This document shows positions 15,706 to 31,617 of a stretch of 64,000 bases of DNA, piece by piece; the stretch's first letter is position 1; each line of letters opens with the position of its first letter. The notes beneath the pieces are model-generated. The model worked only from the letters and a program-made list of their open reading frames with translations. It was not told where the DNA came from and ran no database searches. Made by a program: the position numbers and the translations under genes. The stretch covers positions 1 to 64,000 of the forward strand of contig NZ_BCWW01000016.1 of the NCBI RefSeq assembly GCF_001894785.1. Reading direction: 5' to 3'. The DNA is from Rhodococcoides fascians NBRC 12155 = LMG 3623. Its GTDB lineage: Bacteria; Actinomycetota; Actinomycetes; Mycobacteriales; Mycobacteriaceae.

Positions 15706-15845
15706 GTCCCGAGGTTATCGTGCCCGGGGCTCGATCTCACGCACACATTCTCAGGTGGGCCTCAGGTGATTCATACCGGACCCACACGCGGGTCGGTCAG
15801 GCTATGGAGGAATCGCAGGTCCGTCTCGATTGCGAAGTGTGAGCT

Positions 15846-15872
15846 GGAACATCCGAGGGTAGTCGTCGGTTG
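15846..15872 (+). promoter_or_regulatory. SigE-type (ECF) promoter upstream of sigE
   Basis: GGAACA at 15846-15851 and GGTTG at 15868-15872 are separated by 16 nt. This fits the mycobacterial SigE promoter pattern (GGAAC-type -35, 15-16 nt, SGTTG -10) and suggests autoregulation. The transcript would start near 15879, before an AGGAGG at 15901. Confidence 0.6.
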
Positions 15873-15914
15873 CATCAGAAGGACGTACGCAGTCCTGAGC
15901 AGGAGGATCCAACT

Positions 15915-16550
15915 ATTTACAAGATCAACGGCGATCGCGACATCGCTCGTCTACCCGAGTCCGTGCCCACCCCCGACGACCTCAGCGGCACCGCAGTGTT
16001 CGATGCGACCGGCGAGAACTCCACCATGCCGTCTTGGGACGAGCTCGTTCGCGAACACGGCGACCGCGTCTACCGACTCGCGTACCGCCTCTCCGGCAAT
16101 GCCCAGGACGCCGAGGACCTGACTCAGGACACCTTCATCCGCGTGTTCCGCTCCCTGTCGAACTACCAGCCGGGAACGTTCGAGGGTTGGCTGCACCGCA
16201 TCACGACCAACCTGTTCCTCGACATGGTTCGTCGCCGCAGCCGTATCCGCATGGAAGCACTGCCCGAGGACTACGACCGCGTTCCGTCGGACCGGCCCAA
16301 CCCCGAGCAGATCTACCACGACGCTCGCCTCGACCCGGATCTGCAGTCTGCGCTCGATTCGCTGGCACCCGAGTTTCGCGCCGCAATCGTGTTGTGCGAC
16401 ATCGAAGGACTGTCGTACGAAGAGATCGGTGCGACACTGGGCGTCAAGCTCGGAACGGTTCGTAGTCGCATTCACCGTGGCCGTCACGCGCTACGGGAGT
16501 ACCTTCGAGTGCACGGGAAGGTCGACTCGGGTCACGCAAGTGTCCACTAG
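15915..16550 (+). CDS. sigE: ECF RNA polymerase sigma factor SigE, probable ATT start
   Basis: Envelope-stress sigma factor. Region 2 ([38 protein letters not shown]) and region 4 ([35 protein letters not shown]) are complete and almost identical to mycobacterial SigE, including the GTAVFDATG...[10 protein letters not shown]-terminus. A TTG at 15870 is the only conventional start upstream of conserved sequence, but it lies inside the likely SigE promoter and has no close Shine-Dalgarno. The ATT at 15915 sits 8 nt after a perfect AGGAGG (15901-15906) and gives 211 residues. An internal ATG at 16026 could give a shorter form. Followed by its anti-sigma gene. Product certain, start inferred. Confidence 0.93.
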
Positions 16551-16566
16551 CTACGAGGAGGGTTGG

Positions 16567-16893
16567 ATGACGCAGGCACGCAAGCCTCGGCAATTCAGCT
16601 CCACCGAACATCTGGCCAGTGAAGCCGTCGCAGCCTACGTCGATGGTGAACTACGAATGCCCGCTCACCTCCGCGCCGCTCACCACCTCTCCGAATGCCC
16701 GGAATGCTCGGCCGAGGTCGAGGCGCAGCAGCAGGCGCGTCGAGCGCTCCGCGGAGCAGGCGAGATGTCGATGCCACATTCGCTCCTCGGTTTGCTGAGC
16801 CAGATTCCGTCCTGTGCAGGCGAAGACGGGCCCGCTCGATCCAAGCGGTCGTTCATGGCGTCCGTCGAGGCCGTGCGCCGTCGTCGACGCTGA
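16567..16893 (+). CDS. rseA: Anti-sigma-E factor RseA (ZAS family)
   Basis: A 108-residue soluble zinc-binding anti-sigma factor that holds SigE inactive. The ZAS motif His40-x3-Cys44-x2-Cys47 (HHLSECPEC) is intact, preceded by EAVAAYVDGELRMPAHLRAA. There is no transmembrane helix. Starts at ATG 16567 behind GAGGAGG (5-nt spacing), 16 nt after the sigE stop; a GTG at 16540 would overlap sigE. In M. tuberculosis release of SigE involves cysteine oxidation or phosphorylation and ClpC1P2 degradation of RseA. The basic tail ends VEAVRRRRR. Confidence 0.9.
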   Translation: MTQARKPRQFSSTEHLASEAVAAYVDGELRMPAHLRAAHHLSECPECSAEVEAQQQARRALRGAGEMSMPHSLLGLLSQIPSCAGEDGPARSKRSFMASVEAVRRRRR

Positions 16894-31560: not shown

Positions 31561-31617
31561 CATGTGAGCGGAACTTCGTAGCCCACTACGAAGTTCCACT
31601 CACATGCCGCAGGCTCT
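31561..31617. repeat. Dispersed palindromic element, family 1, copy 2
   Basis: A 46-bp palindrome at 31561-31606: 21-bp arms (CATGTGAGCGGAA + CTTCGTAG), loop CCCA, one mismatch. The flank CCGCAGGCTCT (31607-31617) is the reverse complement of the flank of copy 1, so the copies are in opposite orientation. It lies between convergent sugC and the MFS gene, and its last bases overlap the MFS stop codon. Confidence 0.85.

Follow-up and report, generated by a model that had tools for sequence, protein, structure and literature searches.

Translation of sigE in R. fascians and the clade around it is likely to start at the near-cognate codon AUU or AUC, which is the reading best supported by the sequences compared. 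In the window, i.e. the whole stretch of 64,000 nt that was analysed, the coding sequence from the proposed start lies at 15915..16550 on the forward strand and comprises 211 codons and a stop. We put at roughly 70% the probability that SigE is made from an AUU/AUC codon 7–8 nt after AGGAGG, on an mRNA with a short leader transcribed from a stress promoter, and that the weak codon keeps SigE below its anti-sigma factor RseA.

The sigE locus and its upstream region

The sigE product scored 374.9 bits against the SigE equivalog family NF007229 of NCBIfam (cut-off 265), which makes it a member of that family, and sigma-70 regions 2 and 4 of Pfam were both found in it. The next gene, rseA, which encodes the anti-sigma factor (16567..16893, forward strand), starts at ATG 5 nt after AGGAGG (16556–16561), and the same AGGAGG-N5-ATG start was seen in all 29 loci of the clade. 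The best NCBIfam match of its product was the anti-sigma E factor RseA, at 132.9 bits, which is under the curated cut-off of 165. A gene for a trypsin/PDZ protease follows, and the order of the three genes matches sigE-rseA-htrA of M. tuberculosis as given in the available text of a review (PMC10027907).

Upstream of the promoter and of sigE there is an in-frame stop, TGA at 15840. A 12-codon ORF (15804–15842) ends at this TGA, just 5' of the promoter; it starts with ATG, or with GTG in some relatives, and carries an early stop in one of them (L005). Reading of the window sequence showed no upstream ORF to which sigE would be coupled on the mRNA from the stress promoter.

The promoter (15846..15872, forward strand) is composed of GGAACA (15846–15851), a 16-nt spacer and GGTTG (15868–15872), equivalent to GGAAC-N18-GTT, and is of the ECF (SigE/SigH) stress type. 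The initial annotation had described a stress-type promoter overlapping the TTG codon at 15870, and the TTG is indeed contained in the −10 element; all coordinates given there were found to be exact, and the sigE stop ends at 16550. The pattern GGAAC-N18/19-GTT was present upstream of sigE in all 28 distinct clade sequences. From this pattern we infer both the type of sigma factor that would read the promoter and a transcript start near 15879. Over the whole window, GGAAC-N18-GTT matched six times (1.66 expected), two of the six coming from a single palindrome, matched once on each strand. An inverted repeat at 31570–31597, in which 4 nt are flanked by GGAACTTCGTAG and the complement of it, matches the promoter pattern on both strands.

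About 80–100 bp before the stress promoter lies a direct repeat, CTCAG-N6-CTCAG (15750–15768), which was kept in 17/17 aligned relatives. It may resemble MprA-type sites, by which mycobacterial sigE is controlled.

Conservation of AGGAGG and the AT[TC] codon

Genes for SigE were present in all 37 genomes of the genus, and 36 of them were readable at the 5' end; the remaining one (G017), a fragment without the 5' region, was left uncounted. The window's clade comprises 29 genomes with 28 distinct sequences. In the window, the ATT codon (15915..15917, forward strand) is in frame with sigE and lies 8 nt after the Shine-Dalgarno sequence AGGAGG (15901..15906, forward strand), as had been stated initially. 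An in-frame AGGAGG-N7/8-AT[TC] was found in 28/28 distinct clade sequences, with a gap of 8 nt in 27 and of 7 nt in one, and each sequence has exactly one AGGAGG within 260 nt before the ATG at 16026. The Shine-Dalgarno sequence is part of an 18-nt block, TCCTGAGCAGGAGGATCC (15893..15910, forward strand), that is identical in all 28. The first two bases of AT[TC] have not changed in the clade according to parsimony, while the third has changed three times, only between T and C. Between AT[TC] and the ATG at 16026 there are eight different distances (81–174 nt), all multiples of three; an intact frame was demanded by the search itself here, and every clade sequence passed. Judged by this conservation, the arrangement is more than chance, and the locus belongs with those in which a conserved codon other than ATG, GTG or TTG stands at the inferred initiation site behind a strong Shine-Dalgarno sequence. 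The initial proposal of an ATT start was thus borne out in part: the AGGAGG/AT[TC] pair is kept throughout the clade, but the codon is ATT in only 16 of the 28 sequences and ATC in 12, and some neighbouring lineages are without AT[TC].

Taken from a single sequence, the motif says little. The window has one AGGAGG-N8-ATY (0.57 expected) and the 5.77-Mb genome has 60, so that the motif is not significant alone, and motif significance from one sequence was discarded as evidence. Nor is the 8-nt gap clearly preferred, since AGGAGG-N8-RTG and AGGAGG-N14-RTG are about equally frequent in this genome (73 and 72 sites). The gap is 5 nt at rseA and 4 nt at infC. Among the 34 sites of AAGGAGG-N4-11-ATG, as counted from the listing, 14 have a gap of 7 or 8, which supports the gap weakly. 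The 16S tail carrying the anti-Shine-Dalgarno sequence had no match in the draft genome, and its sequence was taken as known.

The block TCCTGAGCAGGAGGATCC is longer than a Shine-Dalgarno sequence requires, and a common fold was not seen in the leaders. A conserved hairpin masking the Shine-Dalgarno sequence was ruled out, as the folds of the window leader were not clearly better than those of shuffled sequences (z −0.93, 0.06, 0.33); inspection of 23 leaders by eye showed no common structure.

Outside the clade, seven genomes of the genus have ATG two codons after the Shine-Dalgarno site, i.e. at codon 3. Three of them (L030, L148, L149) have ATC at the site itself; the other four are those of the 36 readable genomes in which AT[TC] is missing, with GAT in L150, L151 and L153 and, after a weaker Shine-Dalgarno sequence, ATA in L152. 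In the three with GAT, which are R. corynebacterioides-like, GAT replaces an in-frame ATC and the ATG has an extra AGAGG 5 nt upstream of it, which looks like a shift of the start.

We also compared 127 non-mycobacterial loci, of which 5 were without an anchor and 12 without a start-like site; the 110 kept (92 distinct) were those with AT[TCAG] at the Shine-Dalgarno site or a canonical codon 3, and some rows representing single genomes of other genera may be chance Shine-Dalgarno matches. Where codon 3 is canonical (54 distinct loci), AT[TC] was found at the site in 44, and the two starts are therefore indistinguishable there; in the other 10 a start at the downstream codon is more likely, although some of these may be chance matches as well. 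In the 38 distinct loci with a non-canonical codon 3, the site has AT[TC] in 34 and ATG in 4, three of them from Nocardia and one from a genome of that type. This class, with AT[TC] or ATG in 38/38, is partly a product of the selection, so that the firm counts are those of whole groups: 29/29 in the clade and 3/3 in the Antrihabitans type, whose three distinct loci have ATC and lack a canonical codon 3. The same was seen in L122 and L139, from two other genera. In L122, L139, L063, L090 and L128, ATC stands behind AGGAGG with no canonical codon two codons on, and their sigE starts may be mis-annotated. Other genera were more varied, several being without both the Shine-Dalgarno sequence and AT[TC], and among mycobacterial loci ATC was found at the corresponding place in 9/25 and AT[TC] was missing in 16/25.

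In most Rhodococcus, Prescottella and Nocardia loci examined, codon 3 is ATG and ATC precedes it. Together with the AAG at codon 3 of the window, which is one base from ATG, this leaves some room for a different view of the codon, namely that ATT is the start but has no regulatory role and is a leftover after the loss of the ATG at codon 3. Such a history is possible, if on the doubtful side; it concerns only the regulatory half of our proposal and overlaps with it. ATG is also only one base away from ATT, yet it was seen at codon 1 in 0/28 clade sequences despite the three third-base changes, whereas G was included at 50 of the 56 fourfold sites of the sigma core with at least three changes. 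The absence of ATG may reflect selection that disfavours a stronger start; it is only suggestive, because the coding of isoleucine could exclude G too.

The position of the start codon

Base changes were counted by parsimony over the 28 sequences; upstream columns were counted ungapped from the Shine-Dalgarno sequence, so leaders of differing length are not strictly aligned in these numbers. Before the Shine-Dalgarno sequence, changes at the three codon positions numbered 21/24/25 and 48/40/45, i.e. there was no codon periodicity. The bias towards the third base was weak in codons 1–9 (6/9/13), strong in the block before the ATG at 16026 (17/15/67) and very marked in the sigma core (43/6/624). 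Codon differences among the 14 closest sequences were 17 synonymous and 15 non-synonymous between ATT and the ATG at 16026, and 142 and 3 in the sigma core. Since codon periodicity is absent before the Shine-Dalgarno sequence and strong in the block before ATG 16026, translation should begin after the leader and before that ATG. Codons 1–9 are the weakest link of the argument: within the clade, codon 1 is no better conserved than codons 2 and 5, and by conservation alone a start codon looks the same as an ordinary isoleucine codon, which would also keep AT[TC].

The TTG at 15870 (15870..15872, forward strand) is the only ATG, GTG or TTG in frame between the stop at 15840 and ATT, as the initial annotation had noted. 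It could serve as the start of SigE if a housekeeping or MprA-type promoter further upstream made a longer transcript, with ATT as an internal isoleucine codon. The CTCAG-N6-CTCAG repeat would fit such a promoter, public predictions of 226 aa begin at this TTG, and the main isoform of M. tuberculosis is made from an upstream start (available text of PMC10027907). The initial annotation had proposed comparing how well ATT and AGGAGG are kept in relatives, and here the two candidates part: against the 28/28 for the AGGAGG/AT[TC] pair, the TTG is in frame with AT[TC] in 22/28 clade sequences and out of frame in 6/28, because the spacing between the −10 GTT and AT[TC] covers each of the three remainders modulo 3. 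Over the 15 codons from TTG to ATT, all five codon differences among the 14 closest sequences were non-synonymous, so no protein constraint is seen on the extension that a longer isoform would carry. By eye, no Shine-Dalgarno sequence lies at a good distance before the TTG in the window, and its retention is explained by its being part of the conserved −10 element. In addition, an in-frame stop is present at or after the −10 GTT in four sequences (L023, L025, L026 and L029), in L023 as a TGA two bases before the Shine-Dalgarno sequence, and past the −10 element a canonical in-frame codon before AT[TC] was found in 0/28. We consider a start at the TTG improbable and judge the codon to be promoter sequence. 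With no upstream canonical start in frame throughout the clade, translation there would begin mainly at AT[TC].

A start further downstream, at ATC 15924 (codon 4), GTG 15963, GTG 15996 or ATG 16026, has little to recommend it, even though GTG and ATG are canonical codons and public 208-aa records begin with MNGDRD, i.e. at codon 4: codon 4 lies 17 nt from the Shine-Dalgarno sequence in the window and is ATC in 25/28, but TTC or GTC in L013, L023 and L029; GTG 15963 occurs in 2/28 and GTG 15996 in 17/28; the ATG at 16026 comes after the strongly third-base-biased block; and no Shine-Dalgarno sequence was seen by eye before any of these candidates in the window. That ATG is the only internal canonical codon common to all 28 sequences, and the initial annotation had suggested that it gives a shorter isoform; we found no support for this, because the block preceding it is clearly translated and the in-frame GTG codons at 15963 and 15996, both absent from that annotation, come first in the window. 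L027 and L029 have no canonical in-frame codon at all from the −10 element to ATG 16026. With the TTG, codon 4, both GTG codons and the ATG disfavoured, codon 1, AT[TC], is the remaining candidate.

Known near-cognate starts and a possible role for the weak codon

To our knowledge, starts at codons besides ATG, GTG and TTG have been demonstrated for few bacterial genes and are seldom predicted by gene finders. One such gene in this genus is infC, which has ATC behind AGGAGG in 30/30 loci from 37 genomes, so these cells can be expected to use near-cognate initiation behind a strong Shine-Dalgarno sequence at one gene. It shares with sigE the AT[TC] codon behind AGGAGG, and differs in the autoregulation by IF3, in the gap of 4 nt and in being an unrelated gene. 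Within 500 nt before infC, GGAA[CT]-N17-19-GTT, which might mark the IF3 gene as a target of SigE/SigH, was found in none of three loci and at one site in each of two others, five being searched.

In a screen of start codons at the leadered position with a Shine-Dalgarno sequence in M. smegmatis, ATT made up 9.8% and ATC 0.2% of the selected pool (Shell 2015, PMC4633059), the latter being called low but above background by the authors in the text available. The 9.8% for ATT speaks for an AT[TC] start; the presence of ATC in 12 of the 28 clade sequences, set against that 0.2%, counts against it.

A close parallel from an actinobacterium is sigR of Streptomyces, which starts at GTC and is repressed by IF3, and this control is lost once the codon is made canonical (Feeney et al. 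2017, PMC5472188, in the parts available). Both genes encode ECF sigma factors, with a strong AGGAGG, a near-cognate start codon (a probable one in sigE), a downstream anti-sigma gene with its own ribosome-binding site and a stress-type autoregulatory promoter. SigR, however, belongs to the SigH family, uses GTC and has an experimentally established control by IF3, whereas the present case concerns SigE and ATT/ATC and is known from sequence. As for sigR homologues from other genera of actinobacteria, the discussion of PMC5472188 states that evidence for a codon of this kind is absent, and nothing on sigE of the present group was noticed in the parts available.

For the orthologous sigE of M. 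tuberculosis, the available text of PMC10027907 describes P3 transcripts that give isoforms of 218 and 215 aa from two non-canonical codons; by our own count on the 257-aa chain in 9m9d, these begin at Ile 40 and Leu 43. The likeness extends to the promoter, which is SigH-type and lies close to the coding region or within it, and to the non-canonical short starts, although the short isoforms are alternatives to a main form of 257 aa there. A P3-type feature is also predicted here, with the SigH/SigE-type promoter pattern directly upstream of the non-canonical start in 28/28. The DNA pattern of M. tuberculosis sigE was matched in 0/396 genomes, and the comparison is one of proteins.

In public records, the SigE proteins of R. 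yunnanense and R. kyotonense begin with MYKINGD, which corresponds to the ATC in L039 and L040; for two relatives the start is thus already placed at the ATC. Within the clade, public proteins show three different sigE starts, giving forms of 226, 208 and 209 aa. We recognised no report of an AUU/AUC start for Rhodococcus sigE in a search of the open-access literature; PMC10012870 cites a subscription paper on the sigma factors of R. erythropolis.

A mechanism can be pictured as follows. The promoter at 15846–15872, whose use is suggested by its conservation, would make an mRNA with a short leader of about 36 nt before the AUU. The AUU or AUC would be read by the initiator tRNA, the strong AGGAGG compensating for the weak codon, and IF3 would discriminate against it. 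RseA, from an AUG behind AGGAGG with the shorter gap of 5 nt, would be made in excess over SigE, and under stress autoregulation through the stress promoter would overcome the low translation of SigE. A regulatory role of the codon, as put forward in the initial annotation, and control of SigE by IF3 are suggested by analogy with infC and Streptomyces sigR. More tentatively, AUU/AUC may be an old and selected translational valve across Nocardiaceae-type genera, by which IF3 holds SigE below RseA, and which would have arisen independently on Streptomyces SigR as GUC.

If ATT is used, IF3 could control SigE as it does infC and Streptomyces sigR, which would tie the envelope-stress response to the fidelity of translation initiation. 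A use of ATT would also be relevant to the short isoforms of SigE, with their non-canonical starts, that have been reported for M. tuberculosis. Should the valve exist, weak start codons may be a general actinobacterial way to set the ratios of sigma to anti-sigma factors.
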